Assembly: GCF_026393345.1 (NCBI RefSeq) | Contig: NZ_JAPLAI010000035.1 | Coordinates: forward strand, 1 to 64,000 | Reading direction: 5' to 3' | DNA: 64,000 bases | Source of the DNA: Microbacterium sp. | GTDB lineage: Bacteria; Actinomycetota; Actinomycetes; Actinomycetales; Microbacteriaceae | Shown here: positions 54,073 to 64,000 of the stretch, piece after piece | How positions within the stretch are numbered: position 1 is the first letter of the stretch | Layout: every line of letters begins with the position of its first letter | Notes under the pieces: model-generated | What the model saw: only the letters and a program-made list of their open reading frames with translations | The model's database searches: none | What the model was told of the DNA's origin: nothing | Made by a program: the position numbers and the translations under genes

Positions 54073-54222
54073 TTATCGTAATTCGTTGCGAAGCGGAATC
54101 ATTCCCGCCGAGGTGTCCCGGGAGTTGCGCGGTGGTAACACAGGGGCAACAATCGCTGGGTACCGTGCAGTGTCGCCGAACCCACCCGGATTTTTGGCGC
54201 TCGTCCCTAGTTGGAGGTGTCA

Positions 54223-55542
54223 GTGGCGATCACTCGGATATCGCACGCCGACAGGTTGCCGTCCCGCGCTCTTGCGTCTGTGCTCACCGGATTGTTCGCC
54301 ATCGCGCTGGTGTTCGGCATGGCCAGTCCCGCCGCGGCCGACACCGATGACGGCGAGGATTATCCCTTCGCCATCTCGGGGAACGTCCGCGCCGCCGGCG
54401 AGCCCATCGCGGGTGCGACCATCACCGTGACGGGTGAGGATTTCACCAACGAGACCGAGACCGAGAAGAACGGCAGCTTCCGGGTGGGCGTACCCACCAA
54501 GGAGGGCACCTGGACCATCGAGCTCGACAAGGACAGCCTCCCGAAGGACGTGACCGTCCCGGATGACTTCGTCTTCGAAGAGGAGGTGGAGTTCGGCGCG
54601 ACGAGCACGGTCACCCGGAACTTCACCCTCGGCGCCGCGGAGCGCACCACGACGAGCTTCTGGGATCAGTTGCTCTCGCGGTCGGTGAACGGCCTCAACT
54701 TCGGCCTCATGCTCGCCCTCGCCGCGATCGGCCTGTCGCTCGTGTTCGGTACGACCGGGCTCTCCAACTTCGCCCACGGCGAGATGGTGACCTTCGGGGC
54801 CCTCACCGCCCTGCTCTTCTCCGCCGGCCTCGGGCTGCCGATCTGGATCGCGATCCCCCTCGCGGTGATCCTGTCGGCCCTGTTCGGGCTCGGCATGGAT
54901 GCGGGCATCTGGCGCCCGCTCCGACGAAAAGGCATCGGCACGGTCCAGCTGATGATCGTCTCGATCGGTCTGTCGCTGGCCCTCCGGTACGTCTTCCAGA
55001 TGATCATCGGCGGCGGGACCCAGCAGCTCCCGGGCGGGTCGACCACCATCATCCCGGGGCTCGGCCCCATCCGGCTCACCGTCACCGATGTCGTGTCGAT
55101 GGCGATCTCGATCGTGGTGATCGCCGCCTTCGCCTGGTGGCTGATGCGCACCCGGATCGGTCGCGCCACCCGCGCGGTCTCCGACAACCCGTCGCTCGCC
55201 GCGGCCAGCGGAATCGACGTCGACGCGGTGGTCCGGGTCGTGTGGGTGGTCGCCGCAGCCCTCGCCGGGCTCTCCGGGGTGCTGTGGGCGTACTTCCGCC
55301 CCGGTATCAAGTGGGACATGGGTACCAGCGTCCTGCTGCTCATGTTCGCCGCGGTCACCCTGGGTGGCCTCGGCACCGCCTTCGGCGCCCTCGTCGGGTC
55401 GATCATCGTGGGCATGCTCGTCGAGGTGTCGACGCTCTGGATCCCCTCCGACCTCAAGTACGTCGGCGCGCTGGTCGTGCTGATCGTCATCCTCCTGTTC
55501 CGTCCGCAGGGCATCCTCGGACGCCGAGAGAGAATCGGATAG
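54223..55542 (+). CDS. livH: Branched-chain amino acid ABC permease (LivH type) with N-terminal extracytoplasmic domain
   Basis: This 439-aa protein has an unusual fusion. Residues 1-41 form a signal peptide ending in ASPAAAD. Residues about 45-130 look like a carboxypeptidase-regulatory/CnaB-type beta-sandwich (ISGNVRAAGEPIAGATITVTGE). From about residue 150 it is a typical LivH permease with NFGLMLALAAIGLSLVFGTTGLSNFAHGEM and the C-terminal FRPQGILGRRERIG. The start is GTG 54223, preceded by GGAGG; a TTG at 54211 is less likely. It is the first gene of livHMGF. No LivK-type binding protein is in the window. Confidence 0.9.
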   Translation: MAITRISHADRLPSRALASVLTGLFAIALVFGMASPAAADTDDGEDYPFAISGNVRAAGEPIAGATITVTGEDFTNETETEKNGSFRVGVPTKEGTWTIELDKDSLPKDVTVPDDFVFEEEVEFGATSTVTRNFTLGAAERTTTSFWDQLLSRSVNGLNFGLMLALAAIGLSLVFGTTGLSNFAHGEMVTFGALTALLFSAGLGLPIWIAIPLAVILSALFGLGMDAGIWRPLRRKGIGTVQLMIVSIGLSLALRYVFQMIIGGGTQQLPGGSTTIIPGLGPIRLTVTDVVSMAISIVVIAAFAWWLMRTRIGRATRAVSDNPSLAAASGIDVDAVVRVVWVVAAALAGLSGVLWAYFRPGIKWDMGTSVLLLMFAAVTLGGLGTAFGALVGSIIVGMLVEVSTLWIPSDLKYVGALVVLIVILLFRPQGILGRRERIG

Positions 55543-55546
55543 CCAC

Positions 55547-56527
55547 GTGAACATCGTTCAGATCCTCTCCAACACACTGGCGCAGATCCTCGCGCCGGCC
55601 ACGCTCGGCTACGTCCTCGCGGCGATCGGCCTGTCGGTGCACTTCGGCTTCGCGGGCCTGCTCAACATGGGTGTCGCGGGCTTCATGGCCATCGGCGCCT
55701 ACGGCTTCGCGATCTCGATCCTGACCTTCGGGCTGCCCTGGCCGTTGGCGGCACTGCTCGGCCTGGTGGCCGCGGTGATCTTCGCGCTGATCATGGGCAT
55801 CCCGACGCTGCGGCTGCGCGGCGACTACCTGGCGATCGTCACGATCGCCGCCGCCGAGGTGCTGCGCCTGCTGTTCCTCACCTCCGCGTTCCGCAACTAC
55901 ACCGGCTCGGCCGACGGCCTCTCCGGGTTCCAGGCCGGCTTCCGTGCCAGCAACCCGCTGCCGCCCGGGAAGTTCGGGTTCGGACCGTGGACCTACCAGT
56001 CCGACCAGTGGTGGGTCATCATCGTCGGCGCGATCACGATCGCCATCGCGGTCACCATCGTGTGGCTGCTGATGCGAAGCCCGTGGGGTCGCGTCATCCG
56101 CGGCATCCGCGAGGACGAGGATGCGGTGCGCTCCCTCGGCAAGAACGTCTTCGCCTTCAAGATGCAGGCGCTGATCTTCGGCGGCGTGCTCATCGCCGCC
56201 GGTGGCATCGTCACCGCGATGGGCACCAACGTGAACCCGAACGTGTACGTCACCTCGCAGACGTTCTACGTGTGGACGGCGCTCCTCCTCGGCGGGGCGG
56301 CGACCATCTTCGGCCCCGTGCTGGGCGCTGTACTGTTCTGGGTCGTCCGCGCCTTCCTGTCCAACCTCCTGCCGGCGCTCGTCAGCATCGGATGGTTGCC
56401 GTTCCTCACCACCGAGCAGAGCCAGATGCTCGTGTTCGTGCTCGTGGGTGTCGCCCTGATGCTCCTGGTGATCTTCCGCCCGCAGGGCATCCTCGGCAGC
56501 AAGAAGGAGTTGACCTTTGTCCGCTGA
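55547..56527 (+). CDS. livM: Branched-chain amino acid ABC permease (LivM type)
   Basis: The 326-aa permease has the LivM pattern: IGLSVHFGFAGLLNMGVAGFMAIGAY, PTLRLRGDYLAIVTIAAAEVLRLLFL and the cytoplasmic SPWGRVIRGIREDEDAVRSLGKNVFAFK. The start is GTG at 55547, 5 bases after livH. Its stop lies inside the livG start region. It forms the membrane channel with LivH for branched-chain amino acids or related amides. Confidence 0.94.
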   Translation: MNIVQILSNTLAQILAPATLGYVLAAIGLSVHFGFAGLLNMGVAGFMAIGAYGFAISILTFGLPWPLAALLGLVAAVIFALIMGIPTLRLRGDYLAIVTIAAAEVLRLLFLTSAFRNYTGSADGLSGFQAGFRASNPLPPGKFGFGPWTYQSDQWWVIIVGAITIAIAVTIVWLLMRSPWGRVIRGIREDEDAVRSLGKNVFAFKMQALIFGGVLIAAGGIVTAMGTNVNPNVYVTSQTFYVWTALLLGGAATIFGPVLGAVLFWVVRAFLSNLLPALVSIGWLPFLTTEQSQMLVFVLVGVALMLLVIFRPQGILGSKKELTFVR

Positions 56528-57509
56528 CGTCTCTCCCCCCACCCCACGCCCGAAGACCACCGGCCTGCACAAGGGCGAGATCCGCCCCGGTGTGGAGAAG
56601 GTGGACCCGGTCATCGTCGTCGACGGTGTGCGGCGCGTCTTCGGCGGCCTCACCGCCGTCGACGTCGAGCACCTGGAGATCCCCCGCAACGCCATCACGG
56701 CGCTCATCGGACCGAACGGTGCCGGCAAGACCACGCTGTTCAACCTGCTCACCGGGTTCGACAAGCCGAACGAGGGGTCCTGGTCGTTCGACGGCACCAA
56801 CCTCGCCGGCATCCCCGCGTACAAGGCCGCCCGGATGGGTCAGGTGCGCACGTTCCAGCTGACCAAGTCCCTGGGCCTGCTGACGGTGCTCGAGAACATG
56901 AAGCTCGGTGCGACCGGGCAGACCGGCGAGGGCTTCTGGGCCGGGGCGTTCCCGTTCCTCTGGCGCAAGCAGGAGACCCGCATCGAGGCGAAGGCGCGGG
57001 AGCTGCTCGCGCGCTTCAAGCTCGACACCAAGGAGAAGGACTTCGCGGCCTCCCTCTCCGGCGGTCAGCGGAAGCTCCTCGAGATGGCTCGCGCCCTGAT
57101 GAGCGACCCCACGCTGGTCATGCTCGACGAGCCGATGGCCGGGGTCAACCCGGCGCTGACGCAGTCGCTCCTCGACCACATCCTCGACCTCAAGGACCTC
57201 GGCATGACGGTCCTGTTCGTCGAGCACGACATGCACATGGTCCGCCACATCGCGGACTGGGTGATCGTGATGGCGGAGGGCAAAGTCGTCGCCGAGGGAC
57301 CGCCCGCATCCGTCATGCAGGACCCCGCCGTCATCGACGCGTACCTGGGTGCGCATCAGGACGTCGACCTCGGGGTGGTCACCGGCCGCCACCAGGGCAC
57401 CCTGACCGCCGAGGCCGAGGAGCTCGTCGCCACGGCGCGGGAGCTCGACGAGGCCATCGACGCGGATATCGCGGCCGAGGCCCACACCGACAGGGAGGCC
57501 GACAAATGA
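56517..57509 (+). CDS. livG: Branched-chain amino acid ABC transporter ATP-binding protein (LivG type)
   Basis: The 330-aa ATPase has Walker A (IGPNGAGKTTLFN), signature LSGGQRKLLEMARAL, Walker B (LVMLDEPMAGVNP) and the switch His (LFVEHDMHMV). The start is a TTG at 56517 overlapping the end of livM, with AAGGAG upstream. N- and C-terminal extensions (first 30 and last 60 residues, the latter Glu/Ala-rich) make it longer than the usual 250-260 aa. Confidence 0.94.
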   Translation: MSADVSPPTPRPKTTGLHKGEIRPGVEKVDPVIVVDGVRRVFGGLTAVDVEHLEIPRNAITALIGPNGAGKTTLFNLLTGFDKPNEGSWSFDGTNLAGIPAYKAARMGQVRTFQLTKSLGLLTVLENMKLGATGQTGEGFWAGAFPFLWRKQETRIEAKARELLARFKLDTKEKDFAASLSGGQRKLLEMARALMSDPTLVMLDEPMAGVNPALTQSLLDHILDLKDLGMTVLFVEHDMHMVRHIADWVIVMAEGKVVAEGPPASVMQDPAVIDAYLGAHQDVDLGVVTGRHQGTLTAEAEELVATARELDEAIDADIAAEAHTDREADK

Positions 57510-58276
57510 GCGACACGGTCCAGTCCGCCGCATCCCCCGCCGCCACCGCGCCGGCCCCGCAGAACGTCGTCGAGGTGCGGAACATCACCGCCGGGTATCT
57601 GCCCGGCGTGAACATCCTCACCGACGCGAACCTCACGGCCGCCAAGGGTGAGCTGATCGGCATCATCGGCCCGAACGGTGCCGGCAAGTCGACGATGCTG
57701 AAGGCGATCTTCGGTCAGGTGAAGGTGCGGTCGGGCGAGGTCATCCTGAACGGCGAGGACATCACGGGCCTACGCGCCAACAAGCTCGTCGCCAAGGGCG
57801 TCGGGTTTGTGCCGCAGACGAACAACGTGTTCCCGAGCCTCACGATCGCCGAGAACCTGCAGATGGGCGCCTACCAGCGTCCGAAGTCGTACGCGGAGCG
57901 GGTCGATTTCATCACCTCGATCTTCCCCGACCTGGGCAAGCGCCTCGGTCAGCGGGCCGGTTCGCTTTCCGGCGGCGAGCGGCAGATGGTCGCCATGGGC
58001 CGCGCGCTCATGATGGACCCGCACGTGCTGCTGCTCGACGAGCCGAGCGCGGGCCTCTCCCCCTCACGGCAGGATGAGGCCTTCCTCCGCGTCTCGGAGA
58101 TCAACAAGGCGGGTGTGACCACGATCATGGTGGAGCAGAACGCCCGCCGCTGCCTGCAGATCTGCGACCGCGGCTACGTGCTCGACCAGGGTCACGACGC
58201 CTACACCGGCACGGGACGCGAGCTCCTGAACGACCCCAAGGTCATCGGTCTCTACCTCGGCACGCTCGGCACCTGA
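57506..58276 (+). CDS. livF: Branched-chain amino acid ABC transporter ATP-binding protein (LivF type)
   Basis: The 256-aa ATPase has Walker A (IGPNGAGKSTMLK), signature LSGGERQMVAMGRAL, Walker B (VLLLDEPSAGLSP) and the switch region TIMVEQNARR typical of LivF. It overlaps livG by ATGA and ends the operon before a strong terminator hairpin. Confidence 0.95.
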   Translation: MSDTVQSAASPAATAPAPQNVVEVRNITAGYLPGVNILTDANLTAAKGELIGIIGPNGAGKSTMLKAIFGQVKVRSGEVILNGEDITGLRANKLVAKGVGFVPQTNNVFPSLTIAENLQMGAYQRPKSYAERVDFITSIFPDLGKRLGQRAGSLSGGERQMVAMGRALMMDPHVLLLDEPSAGLSPSRQDEAFLRVSEINKAGVTTIMVEQNARRCLQICDRGYVLDQGHDAYTGTGRELLNDPKVIGLYLGTLGT

Positions 58277-58502: not shown

Positions 58503-60215
58503 TCAGTCCACCACGAAGGGAAGCAGCAGGCGCGAGGGATGCTGAGCATCCCGGTACACCTTGTGCGTCACCGCACGCCCCACCGGCAGGTGGAAGGCGT
58601 CGGGCGGCAGCAGCGCGTTGTGCTCGTCGGCCATCGGCTCGTTGTTCGACAGCTCCACCGTGAGCTTGTGCCCGGGCAGGAGCGTCGCCGCGAACGGATA
58701 GATCCGCAGCACGTACTCCTCGATCTTCCCGGGCTCCACCGGCACCGCGCGGGTGTGCGGGTGGTAAGGGTTGCCCTCGGTCGTGCGCTCGTCGAGCTCA
58801 CGGTGGGATGCCTTGAGGTAGGCCGTGGTCAGCAGCTGACGCTTGCCGCCCGGCGCCTCGTCCCAGAACCGGAGGATGAGGTTCGTGTCGGGCTGGTCGA
58901 TCTCCACGAACAGGTGCGCCGCACCGGTGCCCATGATCTCGACCGGCTCCTCGAACACGGGCGTGGACCAGCTGATGATCTCGACGGTGTCGGTGACGGT
59001 GAGCGGGGCCTGGTAGAAGCCATCGGGGGCCGAGTACTCCGGCCCCATGGGCTCCGGCTCGGTCGAGAGCTTCCGGCGCGTGCGCAGGTACAGCGGGCGG
59101 TGTTCGGTCCGCTTGGGCGGGAACTGGTCGCCGTGCACGTACTCCCGCGTGCCCTCGACGAACACGCTCACCGGCGGCTCGTCCATCACACCGTTCTCGA
59201 TGCCCTTGATCCAGTAGTCGTACCAGCGGAACATCTTGTCGTGCTCCTCGACCCAGGGGCGCGACTGCATGGGCGGGTAGGGGCCGATCGTCAGCTTCTT
59301 CGGGCCGCCGAGTGCCTCGTAGGCCTCGATCGTGCCGTCCATGGTCCAGCCGCGGCCCTGGTCGATCTGCAGCCAGACCGGCACCTCCACCTGCGGGGCG
59401 AGGGTGATGGGGTTCCGCTCCTCGTACCAGGGGCCGTCGAGCTCGTTCGTGATGATGTCGAACCATGCCTCGTGGTGCACCGGGTAATGCAGGGTGTGCA
59501 CCAGGTTCGGCCACGCCTGCACGTCGGGGTCGGCGAGGCGCTCCACCACGCGCGCTTTGAGCTCGTCGTCGGAGAGGGTCTCCAGCATCCGGCTCTTGAT
59601 GCGGTCGGTGAACGCCCAGCCGGAGTCGCCGCCGCGTCCCTCACGGGCGGCGCGCGGCATGAGCCACATGATGCCGCCGTGGTAGGTGGTCTCGTAGAAG
59701 TCGTAGTGCCCGCCGGAGATGAAGCAGGCCTTCAGGGACGGCGGACGCTCCGCCGCCGCGAGCAGCTGCATCGAGCCGAAGTAGGAGATGCCGATCATGC
59801 CGACTCGGCCATCGCACCACGGCTGCGCAGCAACCCACTCGATGAAGTCGTAGGCGTCCTCGCCGAGCGAGACGCCGCCGGCGTTGTAGTTGCCGATGTG
59901 CTCGCCCTCGCTGCCGCCGGAGCCGCGGAGGTCGCCGATGACGTGCACGTAGCCCTCGTCGACCACGCGGGCGATGTCCCCCGCCTCGATGCAGCCGTCC
60001 CACATGGGCGAGGGGCGCCGCTGCGGCGGCATCGTCAGCGCGAGCGCCTGCAGCTCCTTGCCGTAGGGGCTCAGGGCGACGAGGGCCGGGCGGGGCTCGT
60101 CGCCGATGCCGTACGCGTCGCCGACGAGGACGACGCCGTCGCGCATCGGGATGCGGAGGTCCTTGGACACGGTGATCTCACGCGTGCCGGCGGTAATGGT
60201 GGTGGTGTTCGTCAT
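58503..60215 (-). CDS. CocE/NonD-family (X-Pro dipeptidyl-peptidase-like) hydrolase
   Basis: The 570-aa serine hydrolase of the S15/CocE type cleaves ester or amide bonds. The alpha/beta-hydrolase part begins with IPMRDGVVLVGDAYG; the nucleophile Ser is in MIGISYFGSMQLLAA near residue 145, after GRVGM. The oxyanion Tyr lies at SPYGK. The C-terminal part (from about residue 370) is the jelly-roll beta domain seen in CocE. It is the last gene of the hydrolase operon, overlapping the MBL-fold gene by ATGA. The substrate is unknown. Confidence 0.88.
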   Translation of the reverse strand: MTNTTTITAGTREITVSKDLRIPMRDGVVLVGDAYGIGDEPRPALVALSPYGKELQALALTMPPQRRPSPMWDGCIEAGDIARVVDEGYVHVIGDLRGSGGSEGEHIGNYNAGGVSLGEDAYDFIEWVAAQPWCDGRVGMIGISYFGSMQLLAAAERPPSLKACFISGGHYDFYETTYHGGIMWLMPRAAREGRGGDSGWAFTDRIKSRMLETLSDDELKARVVERLADPDVQAWPNLVHTLHYPVHHEAWFDIITNELDGPWYEERNPITLAPQVEVPVWLQIDQGRGWTMDGTIEAYEALGGPKKLTIGPYPPMQSRPWVEEHDKMFRWYDYWIKGIENGVMDEPPVSVFVEGTREYVHGDQFPPKRTEHRPLYLRTRRKLSTEPEPMGPEYSAPDGFYQAPLTVTDTVEIISWSTPVFEEPVEIMGTGAAHLFVEIDQPDTNLILRFWDEAPGGKRQLLTTAYLKASHRELDERTTEGNPYHPHTRAVPVEPGKIEEYVLRIYPFAATLLPGHKLTVELSNNEPMADEHNALLPPDAFHLPVGRAVTHKVYRDAQHPSRLLLPFVVD

Positions 60216-61156
60216 CGGGTGCTCTCCTGCTCGGCCGCGGGGCCGACGTGGGTGACGTAGCCGTTCATCGTCGTGAAGAACGGCGCGGGTTCGAGGGTGG
60301 GGTCACCGGTGTAGCCGAGTTGCGCGGCCACCGGCTCGAAGGGCGAGGACGGTGCCTCGGATGCGGCAAGGCCCACCGCGAGGTGCGGCAGCACGGCCGC
60401 GCGGATCTGTGCTTCCCGCTCGAGGCTTCCCTCGATCGCGGCGCGCGCATCCACGGCGTCGAGCACTTCGGGGAAGGCGGTGCCGTCGGCGCGGCGATAC
60501 GGATGGCCGAGATACAGGCGCTCCGGGCGGATGACGTCCCGCAGGTATTCGAGGCTCGCGCGGTAGCGATCCGGGTCCTCGTAGCCGGGGAAGCCGCTCG
60601 CCGCACCGTAGGCCTGCACGGCGTCGCCGACGAAGACGTCGCGGGTCTCGTCGAGCACGTACGCGACGGCGCCCTCGGTGTGGCCCGGGATGGCGTGGAC
60701 GCTGAGCGGCACGCCGCCGAGGTCGAAGGTCTCGCCGCCGGAGACCGCGATGGTCGGTTCCATCTCGCCGCCGATCGCGGCGGCGAGCAGGGCACGTTCG
60801 TGCGCCTCACCCTCGGGGTCGGGCAGCCAGCGCCCGCGGCCGTCGCGCCACTCCTGCACGTGCGCCTCCCGGGAGCGGAGGAACGGCGCGTCGGCGCGGT
60901 GGATGACGACCTCGGCCTTGCGGCCGGTGAGTTCCCACAGACCGTAGGCGCCACCCAGGTGATCGATGTGACCGTGGGTCAGCAGGATCCAGCGGACGTC
61001 CTCGATGCGGCGTCCAAGCGATTCCAGCTGCGCCCGCATCGCCTCCGGCGATTCGGTCACGCCGGCATCGACGATCGCGGGCTCGGGCGCATCGATGAAG
61101 AAGCTGCGGAGGCTGAAGCGTCCCCACGGCGCGACGAGCGGATAGACGAGACTCAT
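60212..61156 (-). CDS. MBL-fold metallo-hydrolase
   Basis: The 314-aa protein of the metallo-beta-lactamase fold has the metal motif HGHIDH, with other ligand candidates in HAIPGHTEGAVAYV and VFVGDAVQ. It opens with VYPLVAPWGRFSLRSFFID. Such enzymes hydrolyse lactones, thioesters or sulfates. It overlaps both neighbours by ATGA, so it is translated together with them. The substrate is unknown. Confidence 0.88.
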   Translation of the reverse strand: MSLVYPLVAPWGRFSLRSFFIDAPEPAIVDAGVTESPEAMRAQLESLGRRIEDVRWILLTHGHIDHLGGAYGLWELTGRKAEVVIHRADAPFLRSREAHVQEWRDGRGRWLPDPEGEAHERALLAAAIGGEMEPTIAVSGGETFDLGGVPLSVHAIPGHTEGAVAYVLDETRDVFVGDAVQAYGAASGFPGYEDPDRYRASLEYLRDVIRPERLYLGHPYRRADGTAFPEVLDAVDARAAIEGSLEREAQIRAAVLPHLAVGLAASEAPSSPFEPVAAQLGYTGDPTLEPAPFFTTMNGYVTHVGPAAEQESTR

Positions 61157-62067
61157 CGGCCCAGGAACTCCGCGGTCTGCGTGAACGCGCGCCCGTACTC
61201 CGGCAGCCAGGAGAAGTGCTGCACGAACCCGTGGCCGGCGCCGAGGTAGCGCGTGAGCGTGACGGGCACGCCCGCCTCCTCGAGGCGGCGCGCGTACAGC
61301 TCACCCTCGTCACGCATCGGGTCGAACTCCCCGGTGAGGACGAGCGCCGGCGGCAGGCCGGTCAGATCCTCCCGCTTGACCGGGGAGACGCGCGGGTCCT
61401 GCGGGTCGGCGGTCTGCATGTAGAACGCGTTGAACGGGGCGATGCCCGCGGTCTCCAGCCCGTAGCCGACCGCGTTCTCGGTCATCGACGGGTAACGGCC
61501 GGGGTCGAGGTCCAGGTCTACCGATGGGTAGAACATCACCTGGTGGGTGACGGCGTCCACGCCCGCATCGTGCAGCGTGGCCGCGATCGCCGCGACCATG
61601 GTGCCGCCGGAGCTGTCGCCCGCCAGGGCGAGCGTGGAGCCGTCCCAGCCCGCATCCTCGCCCTGCGCGATGACCCACCCGACGACGGCCTGGCCGTCCT
61701 CCAGCGCCGCCGGGAACGCGTTCTCAGGGGCGAGCCGGTACCCGACCGAGATGACCCGGAGGCCGGTCGCGGTGGCGAGCTGGCGCGCGATGTGGTCGTG
61801 CGTGTTCAGGCTCCCGAGGAACCAGGCACCGCCGTGGAAATACACGATGACCCCGGAGGCGTCCGCATCCGTGTCCGCGTAGACCCGGATGGGCACGTCG
61901 CTGACGGCGGTGTGCGCCACGGTGTCGACGACCTCGCGCACCGGGTGCCGGTCCGCGAGCGGGGGAACCTGCGCCTCCTCCCCCGCGCGCATGGCGACGG
62001 GATCGAGCGGGCCATCCTCGTGCGGGAGGGTCGCGAGGATGCGGGCGATCTCTGGATGCAGCGGCAT
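61153..62067 (-). CDS. Alpha/beta hydrolase of the hormone-sensitive-lipase family
   Basis: The 304-aa esterase has the HGG oxyanion motif in VYFHGGAWFLGS, nucleophile Ser in LALAGDSSGGTMV, catalytic Asp in GEFDPMRDEG and His in GAGHGFV. Short-chain esters are typical substrates. It lies 9 bases after the phosphotriesterase-like gene and overlaps the MBL gene by 4 bases. Confidence 0.92.
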   Translation of the reverse strand: MPLHPEIARILATLPHEDGPLDPVAMRAGEEAQVPPLADRHPVREVVDTVAHTAVSDVPIRVYADTDADASGVIVYFHGGAWFLGSLNTHDHIARQLATATGLRVISVGYRLAPENAFPAALEDGQAVVGWVIAQGEDAGWDGSTLALAGDSSGGTMVAAIAATLHDAGVDAVTHQVMFYPSVDLDLDPGRYPSMTENAVGYGLETAGIAPFNAFYMQTADPQDPRVSPVKREDLTGLPPALVLTGEFDPMRDEGELYARRLEEAGVPVTLTRYLGAGHGFVQHFSWLPEYGRAFTQTAEFLGR

Positions 62068-62076
62068 GTCGGCCTT

Positions 62077-63033
62077 TCAGGACGCCGGAGGAGTGAAGAA
62101 GTCGGCCACGTTGTCGACGAAGATCGTGCGGATCATCGCGTCGTCGACACCGGCTTCGTGCAGGCTCGGGATCAGCACTTCGAACAGGTAGTTGATGGTG
62201 TGGCCCTTGACGCCCGGCCAGCCGAGCGGGCTGCAGTTGGCGTCCGCGGCGGCGAGCACCTGGTCGGCGTGACCCTCGTTCAGGACCCGCAGGAAGTGAT
62301 CCAGGCGCTCCTGGCGTGGGCGGCCCCAGAACGGCGGGTCGGGCAGTTCGAGGTCGTACCCGAACGTGTCGAAGCCGAGGCGTCCCCCGCCGGCGAGGAT
62401 GCCCTGCTCGTCGACCTTGCCCTGGCTCACGCCATCGTCGACGTGACCGAACAGCACGCGCGAGAGCGGGAGACCCTCGTCGGCGAAGATGTCGATCGCG
62501 GGCTGCGCGTCGACGGCGAGGTGGGTGAGGATCGGCGCTCCGGTGGCTTTCGAGGCGCGGGCCGCGGCACGGTAGATGGTCATGTCCAGGGGCAGCATCT
62601 TGAAGCCCCGGCTCACGCCGACCTTGATGATGCCGGCCTTCGCGCCGCTCTGGCCGATCCCCACCGTCAGCTCGTGGATGAACTGGTCGGCGAGGTATTC
62701 GACGCTCGCGTCGGCGAAGAACTTCAGCGCGGTGTCGCCGCCGACGAAGCCGGTCGAGGCGATGAGGTGCACGCCCGTCTTCTCGGAGATCGACTTGTAG
62801 TAGTCGAGGTCGCGGCCGTTGCAGATGTCGGTGGCGTCGACGAAGGTCTCGCCACCGTACTCGCGGAACTTCCGGAGCTTGGGGATGGTCTCCTCGTAGC
62901 GCTGCTCCGGGGTCTTCCACCATTTCGTGTCGAGCTCGCTGCCGGGCATGCCGTAGCCGATGTGCTCGTGGATGGAGGTGAAGCCGAGTTCTTCGACGGC
63001 GACGGGGCCGAGGACGGTGTTGACGCGGGTCAT
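62077..63033 (-). CDS. Phosphotriesterase-family hydrolase, metal ligands intact
   Basis: The 318-aa amidohydrolase-superfamily protein has all expected binuclear-metal ligands: IHEH near residues 21-24, the carboxylated Lys in AGIIKVG, His in ILTHLAVD, His in LFGHVDDG and Asp in AAADANC. Members of this family are often lactonases or esterases more than true phosphotriesterases. It is separated from the paralogous gene upstream by one base and shares its opening TVLGPV. Confidence 0.9.
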   Translation of the reverse strand: MTRVNTVLGPVAVEELGFTSIHEHIGYGMPGSELDTKWWKTPEQRYEETIPKLRKFREYGGETFVDATDICNGRDLDYYKSISEKTGVHLIASTGFVGGDTALKFFADASVEYLADQFIHELTVGIGQSGAKAGIIKVGVSRGFKMLPLDMTIYRAAARASKATGAPILTHLAVDAQPAIDIFADEGLPLSRVLFGHVDDGVSQGKVDEQGILAGGGRLGFDTFGYDLELPDPPFWGRPRQERLDHFLRVLNEGHADQVLAAADANCSPLGWPGVKGHTINYLFEVLIPSLHEAGVDDAMIRTIFVDNVADFFTPPAS

Positions 63034-63034
63034 G

Positions 63035-64000
63035 TCAGTTCTCCTGTCCGGCGAGCACGGTCTGGGGGTTCGTGGCGAGGATCCGCGTGAGATCCTGCTC
63101 GCTCACCCCACGCTCCCGCAGCCGCGGGGCGAAGTCGGCGAGGACCGCGGTGAGAGCGGCGGGTGCCGGGGCGTGGCCGAACGCAGCGCCGGTGGACGAC
63201 GACGACAGCAGGATGCGGTCGGTCAAGCCCGCGTCGATGAGCGCGGCGACGAGGTCGGCCCGGGCGTCGTCGGCGAGGTGGCCGGATGCGGCATCCCACC
63301 CGACGTGGTCGATCGCCACGTACGCACCGCGCTCGGCGGCGGCGCGCGCGACGCCGTCCGCGTCGGCACGGTCGACGTCGGCGACGATGATGCGGGAGGC
63401 GGCGAGTCCCTCGCCGAGCGCGATCTCCAGTGCGGCGATCGGATCGGCGGTCGCACCGAACGACAGTGCGACGCCGGTGGTGGCGGCGGCACGCGCCGCG
63501 CCGCGCAGGAGGCTCTCATCGGTCGGCGTGGCGCCGGCGGCGGTGGCGTCGGTGACGATGAGGCCCGCGCCGCCCCGACGCTCGACCCGCGGCACGACCA
63601 TGCCTTCGGACACCTCGGCGGCGAAGAGGTCAGCGAACCGTTCGGCGGGCCACGGGGTCGGCGGGTTGGTCTGGGGCGTGAGGAAGTACCCGCCGAGGTT
63701 CTCCTCCGGACCCATCCCGGTCGAGGCCACGATGTGCACGCCCGTAGCCCGGGCGAGCTTCTCGTAGAGGCGCACGTCGCGCCCGTGGAACATACCCGTG
63801 CGGTCGACGACGGTGCCGCCGCCGGCGGCCTTGAACGCGTCCAGGTGCGCGCGCAGGCCCTCGAAGACCTCGGCGCGGTCGATCGTGATGTCGAAGGCGT
63901 ACTGGGCACCCGGGACGACCGAGAGCAGTGCTTCGTGGATTGCGACGACGCCGAGGTCGGCCGCATCCACGGGTCCGAGGACCGTGGTGACGGTGGTGCT
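63035..64000 (-). CDS. Phosphotriesterase-family paralogue lacking metal ligands (5' end outside window)
   Basis: The gene runs off the right edge. The visible 321 codons align with the neighbour from TVLGPVDAADLG to the C terminus, but each metal-ligand position is changed: IHEA for IHEH, GLIVTDA for GIIKVG, LSFGATAD for LTHLAVD, IVADVDR for LFGHVDD and LSSSSTG for AAADANC. It is therefore probably a non-catalytic pseudoenzyme, perhaps a partner of the intact paralogue. The ORF-track start (GTG 63970) is an internal Val codon. It is the first visible gene of the hydrolase operon. Confidence 0.82.
   Translation of the reverse strand, partial: STTVTTVLGPVDAADLGVVAIHEALLSVVPGAQYAFDITIDRAEVFEGLRAHLDAFKAAGGGTVVDRTGMFHGRDVRLYEKLARATGVHIVASTGMGPEENLGGYFLTPQTNPPTPWPAERFADLFAAEVSEGMVVPRVERRGGAGLIVTDATAAGATPTDESLLRGAARAAATTGVALSFGATADPIAALEIALGEGLAASRIIVADVDRADADGVARAAAERGAYVAIDHVGWDAASGHLADDARADLVAALIDAGLTDRILLSSSSTGAAFGHAPAPAALTAVLADFAPRLRERGVSEQDLTRILATNPQTVLAGQEN

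Follow-up and report, generated by a model that had tools for sequence, protein, structure and literature searches.

What does a phosphotriesterase (PTE) paralogue that lacks the metal ligands of its family do when its gene lies immediately in front of an intact, catalytic family member? The question is raised by two genes at one end of the window, the 64,000-nucleotide stretch of Microbacterium sp. DNA that was analysed. We call the ligand-poor product pseudo-PTE and its intact neighbour PTE.

Gene pair, junction and metal ligands

The pair and the junction between its members are arranged as follows:

63035-64003, reverse strand: pseudo-PTE gene, 322 aa, complete open reading frame; its ATG (64001-64003) is just outside the window, which holds 63035..64000
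62077-63033, reverse strand: catalytic PTE gene, 318 aa, complete open reading frame, downstream member of the pair
63034..63045, reverse strand: gene junction, with AGGAG at 63041-63045, the stop codon TGA at 63035-63037, a gap at 63034 and the start codon ATG at 63031-63033

Both proteins are full-length matches to the PF02126 family (cut-off 22.4 bits): pseudo-PTE scores 123.8 bits over profile positions 1-297 of 298, and PTE scores 160.7 bits over positions 3-298. They share 27% identity in a pairwise alignment, and no further PTE gene was found in this genome. The initial annotation, which had described adjoining tandem paralogues aligning along their length, is thus confirmed, as is the one-base spacing that it reported (TGA-C-ATG). 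The same 1-nt gap (TGA-C/G-ATG) occurs in most Microbacterium-type loci and suggests that translation of the two reading frames may be coupled. The further claim of equal expression does not follow from the spacing, because the catalytic gene is preceded by an AGGAG of its own, within the 3′ end of the pseudo-PTE gene.

The downstream protein retains all six ligands of the binuclear metal site (H22, H24, K137, H171, H197 and D264), as had been proposed from the sequence, and the complete set (HxH, Lys/Glu, His, His, Asp) is invariant in 33 of 33 catalytic orthologues. In its fold, its family and its HxH-K-H-H-D site it resembles the lactonases SsoPox, SisLac and VmoLac and the PTE of Brevundimonas diminuta. 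At the corresponding columns pseudo-PTE carries H23, A25, V150, G183, D209 and S269, i.e., five of six ligands are lost. The upstream protein had been described as lacking every ligand; the loss is not complete, since the first His of HxH stays in the window protein and in 28 of 30 orthologues, H23 being R or S in the other two. Each of the 30 pseudo-PTE orthologues has zero or one ligand left (one in the window copy). Judged by the binuclear-metal ligands, the upstream protein is therefore not a catalytic phosphotriesterase/lactonase, and the database label of its gene is misleading. As regards the substrate class (phosphotriesterase-like lactonase), none of the curated NCBIfam equivalogs scored at or above its cut-off.

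Distribution, gene cluster and further tandem pairs

Orthologues of pseudo-PTE with 57-68% identity were found in Microbacterium, Microterricola, Leucobacter, Streptomyces, Geodermatophilus, Blastococcus, Nocardiopsis, Actinomadura, Promicromonospora, Propionibacteriaceae and Nocardioides. Plasmid p2 of the betaproteobacterium Caballeronia insecticola bears the whole P450-PTE-hydrolase cluster (L105:10434-20650), with the pseudo-PTE and PTE genes overlapping by 4 nt, which suggests transfer between phyla. Wherever a locus extends far enough to judge, the pseudo-PTE gene is located immediately 5′ of the catalytic gene (locus L065 stops within the pseudo-PTE gene, and adjacency cannot be read there). 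In intact pairs the spacing ranges from a 4-nt overlap to 88 nt.

Matches counted as orthologue-level had E values of up to 1e-50 (catalytic gene) and of about 1e-84 or better (pseudo-PTE gene). On these, co-occurrence was scored in two genome samples, both of which include the genome of the window itself. In the family sample, 11 of 400 genomes contain the pseudo-PTE gene and the same 11 contain the catalytic gene, so the adjacent pair that was to be sought in other Microbacteriaceae is indeed there. In the class sample, both genes are present in the same 5 of 395 genomes. Neither gene was found without the other among these 400 family and 395 class genomes. Genetic pairing is thus obligate in the samples (11/11 and 5/5), with the two genes adjoining in every complete locus.

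The pair belongs to a conserved, apparently catabolic cluster, which in the window (58503-64000) continues downstream with three hydrolase genes:

61153..62067, reverse strand: alpha/beta hydrolase (Abhydrolase_3, Pfam, 223.7 bits), next gene of the operon, 9 nt downstream of the PTE gene; conserved in the cluster
60212..61156, reverse strand: metallo-beta-lactamase (MBL)-fold hydrolase (PF00753, 82.8 bits), overlapping the previous gene by 4 nt; conserved in the cluster
58503..60215, reverse strand: CocE/NonD-family hydrolase (TIGR00976, NCBIfam, 207 bits, above the cut-off), overlapping the previous gene by 4 nt

The CocE/NonD-family hydrolase is 76-87% identical across clusters, another of which is L004:32-3944. 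The usual gene order is pseudo-PTE, PTE, monooxygenase, alpha/beta hydrolase, MBL-fold hydrolase and CocE; P450, ferredoxin, ferredoxin reductase, MFS and TetR genes often lie close by. The window departs from this order in that its monooxygenase gene is relocated upstream; other clusters have an inverted MBL gene or are interrupted by an additional gene. Throughout, the pair stays together.

The cluster P450 is nearest to CYP199 enzymes, which act on aromatic acids. The monooxygenase is nearest to 6-hydroxynicotinate 3-monooxygenase, tropone 2-monooxygenase and decarboxylative vanillate hydroxylase, and several clusters adjoin either CoA transferase and thiolase genes or cupin, fumarylacetoacetate-hydrolase-type and second flavin-monooxygenase genes. 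These similarities and neighbours make an aromatic-acid-like compound the likely substrate, and the cluster probably acts on a molecule derived from an aromatic acid. Two specific pathways were considered. The riboflavin/lumichrome cluster is likewise a catabolic cluster of a soil bacterium with a P450 and hydrolytic ring degradation, but its xanthine oxidase, Rieske dioxygenase, catechol dioxygenase and thiamin-dependent decarboxylase (PMC12746152) are all absent from the conserved cluster, and this pathway was ruled out. Tropone catabolism, considered on account of the similarity to tropone 2-monooxygenase, yielded no match to the cluster in a literature search.

Next to the cluster, at 54211-58276 of the window, lie convergent genes resembling an ABC transporter of the branched-chain amino acid type (two ATPases and membrane proteins), and a substrate-binding protein gene of this type is found at L004:6531-7877. 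The transporter is a possible uptake system for the substrate.

The pairing is repeated in two further settings. Microbacterium allomyrinae carries a second, divergent pair (L046:6080-8288), which lies about 1.7 kb upstream of the first. Its two genes are again separated by one base, and none of the six ligands is left in the second pseudo-PTE. In the phylogenetic tree the pseudo-PTE and PTE groups are each set apart by a branch (100/100 and 100/99); the second PTE branches with PTE (100/98) and the second pseudo-PTE with pseudo-PTE (100/100), the latter placement being less sure owing to its long branch. This branching is consistent with a pair passed on as a unit. In another PTE clade, an independent tandem is present in three genomes, G272, G063 and G129 (L089:1836-4306 and L090:2141-5469 for the first two). 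Here, too, a degenerate gene lies upstream of an intact one; in the two degenerate copies that were examined, the ligand columns read HHRTDG and SHRADG. The degenerate gene is 84-87% conserved between species and, with the first GTG as start codon, the two genes overlap by 4 nt.

The pseudo-PTE N-terminal half and a proposed hetero-oligomer

Conservation within pseudo-PTE is strongly uneven. Of its 67 invariant positions, 56 lie in residues 1-150 and 11 in residues 151-322 (Fisher p = 6e-12, a descriptive value only, as the sequences are not independent). The catalytic family, which controls for shared ancestry, has 65 invariant positions in its N-terminal and 63 in its C-terminal half. In addition, two pseudo-PTE copies (L067 and L098) have lost in-frame segments from their second half, while the first half is intact.

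The most conserved stretch of the family, residues 106-120 (99% mean pairwise identity), lies in loop 3 and holds a 12-residue motif:

63644..63679, reverse strand: codons of TPQTNPPTPWPA, residues 109-120 of pseudo-PTE, loop 3

The motif is exact in 29 of 30 orthologues, the remaining copy having a single N-to-D change. In alignments the stretch includes eight family-specific residues that are absent from the catalytic paralogue and from SisLac; relative to SisLac, this insertion comes immediately behind the segment DLPFYFLNRS (loop 3, around F104). Block means of 70-81 in the AF2 model correspond to moderate model confidence in this region.

The relatives described in the literature form homodimers, with residue 34, F104 and W263 of the active-site loop 8 among the interface residues (PMC3468530, PMC3781021, PMC4323659). 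Position 34 is a dimer pivot residue in SisLac (PMC3468530), and in SsoPox F104 contacts W263 of the other subunit, a residue that starts loop 8 and touches the substrate (PMC3781021). The catalytic family studied here has an invariant loop 8 Trp (W272 in LGWPGVKGHT). Given the SsoPox contact and this invariant residue, loop 3 of pseudo-PTE probably packs against loop 8 of PTE. That the insertion sits at a dimer contact is what we infer from a low-identity alignment and the lactonase homodimer structures.

Taken together, these observations can be accommodated by a model in which the products of the two genes are subunits of a single hetero-oligomeric hydrolase. Hydrolysis would be carried out by the downstream protein, with its binuclear metal site, and the upstream protein would be a paralogous pseudo-subunit replacing one subunit of an ancestral homodimer. 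The pseudo-subunit would retain the half-barrel β1-β4 with loops 1-4, including segments that PTE-family proteins use for dimerising. Its lengthened invariant loop 3 (GPEExLGGYFLTPQTNPPTPWPAE) would probably lie against the catalytic loop 8, which lines the active site, and would stabilise, shape or gate that site. The pair would work within the conserved cluster, alongside a P450-ferredoxin-reductase system, a flavin monooxygenase and the alpha/beta, MBL-fold and CocE hydrolases. The most likely form of the system is an obligately hetero-oligomeric hydrolase, one of whose subunits is non-catalytic, acting in a catabolic cluster, and we hold it to be reasonably probable. The model is supported indirectly by the obligate pairing, by the conservation of the segment corresponding to the homodimer contact of related proteins, by the second pair with the same phylogenetic pattern and by the independent pair in another clade; a physical complex, the contact between subunits and the need for a partner in catalysis are what we infer from them.

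Adjacency, co-occurrence and conservation would be expected, too, if pseudo-PTE had an independent job in the pathway, either as a binder of an intermediate or metabolite (a carrier or sensor) or as a metal-free enzyme derived from the conserved N-terminal half. The gene does lie within a pathway of several hydrolytic steps, and the N-terminal half contains family-specific invariant polar residues, such as E100, R139, R142 and R143. However, the pseudo-PTE gene is never apart from the catalytic gene, whereas further genes of the pathway change place or orientation or are absent; the second pair repeats the branching of pseudo-PTE with pseudo-PTE and PTE with PTE; and a poorly conserved second half-barrel that tolerates deletions is unusual for an enzyme. 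We therefore regard an independent function as rather unlikely.

Pseudoenzymes often serve as regulators or helpers, and pseudo-PTE could likewise inhibit or tune PTE, or assist its folding or metal loading, rather than form a structural half. The genomic evidence in favour of such a role is the same as that for the hetero-oligomer, but the tight coupling of the reading frames suggests stoichiometric, subunit-like synthesis. While this point is not decisive, we consider a purely regulatory or helper role improbable.

Selection on pseudo-PTE and comparison with known systems

Pairwise dN/dS (NG86) is 0.11-0.35 for the pseudo-PTE gene and 0.04-0.44 for the catalytic gene in the same genome pairs, the former being usually somewhat less constrained. 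Frameshifted pseudo-PTE copies, the sign of decay that had been suggested for a search among relatives, do exist at two loci, L044 (reverse strand; single-base deletion) and L066:9983-11045 (where more matching sequence is present in the second half). One frameshifted copy, with a single-base deletion, is 96% identical to an intact copy. Both loci were inspected, and the frameshifts may reflect sequencing error or recent loss. They are isolated exceptions and do not amount to simple decay, although, together with the in-frame deletions, they may mean that the gene is dispensable in some genomes. That pseudo-PTE is a decaying, functionless duplicate is thus extremely improbable: the frameshifted and shortened copies favour it, but 30 intact orthologues over two phyla, the low dN/dS, the near-invariant loop 3 motif and the lack of any catalytic gene without its partner in the whole-genome samples stand against it, and simple decay was ruled out on dN/dS and on ligand and motif conservation.

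It is equally hard to believe that the ligands are merely shifted in the sequence and that pseudo-PTE is still a metalloenzyme, since, despite the retained first His and a nearly invariant H73, H23 is replaced in two copies, no His/Lys/Asp set is conserved at the ligand positions of the barrel and the predicted structure superposes on PTE structures. AF2 yields a confident single PTE barrel for either protein (pLDDT 86.9 for pseudo-PTE and 87.8 for PTE), with TM about 0.85 and 0.87, respectively, to PTE structures in fold searches. The barrel of pseudo-PTE being normal and no compensating pattern being conserved in the family, misplaced ligands were ruled out by family alignment, structure prediction and fold search.

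The proposal of the initial annotation that the upstream protein is under selection for a non-catalytic role holds up well. Thirty ligand-poor orthologues are spread over Actinomycetota and a betaproteobacterium, the dN/dS values lie well below 1 and show purifying selection, family-specific motifs are invariant, and co-occurrence with the PTE gene is perfect in the genome samples; such selection is well supported.

The described PTE-like lactonases are homodimeric; in the present system the catalytic gene is always accompanied by an adjoining gene whose product is a ligand-less paralogue. The solved sequence nearest to pseudo-PTE is a PTE-homology protein (PDB 4if2, 5.5e-21), but PTE-homology proteins keep their metal ligands (HEH and GH in 4if2 versus HEA and AD in pseudo-PTE). 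That an active enzyme can depend on a dead chain of the amidohydrolase superfamily is already known as a general principle from the aspartate transcarbamoylase of Pseudomonas aeruginosa, which requires an inactive pseudo-dihydroorotase chain (PMC7053772). There the partner is an unrelated transcarbamoylase, whereas here it would be the catalytic paralogue of the dead protein itself. We found no precedent in the open-licence literature for such a pair within the phosphotriesterase family, for PTE pseudoenzymes or heterodimers, or for this gene set.

PTE-family enzymes serve as models for enzyme evolution and for the breakdown of quorum signals and organophosphates; how much their dimerisation matters biologically has been described as unclear (PMC3468530). 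A pair that soil bacteria from two phyla have kept is a natural test of what a second subunit contributes to catalysis, and the surrounding cluster appears to be a hitherto uncharacterised catabolic pathway. In practical terms, a protein annotated as 'phosphotriesterase' or 'aryldialkylphosphatase' may yield inactive enzyme when expressed alone. More tentatively, the two proteins may form an obligate heteromer whose active site is composite, the invariant proline-rich loop 3 reaching into the catalytic pocket, and such pairing may have evolved at least twice, once for the present pair and its M. allomyrinae sister pair and once for the tandem of the other PTE clade. If true, a heteromer with a composite active site would be a new architecture for the phosphotriesterase family.
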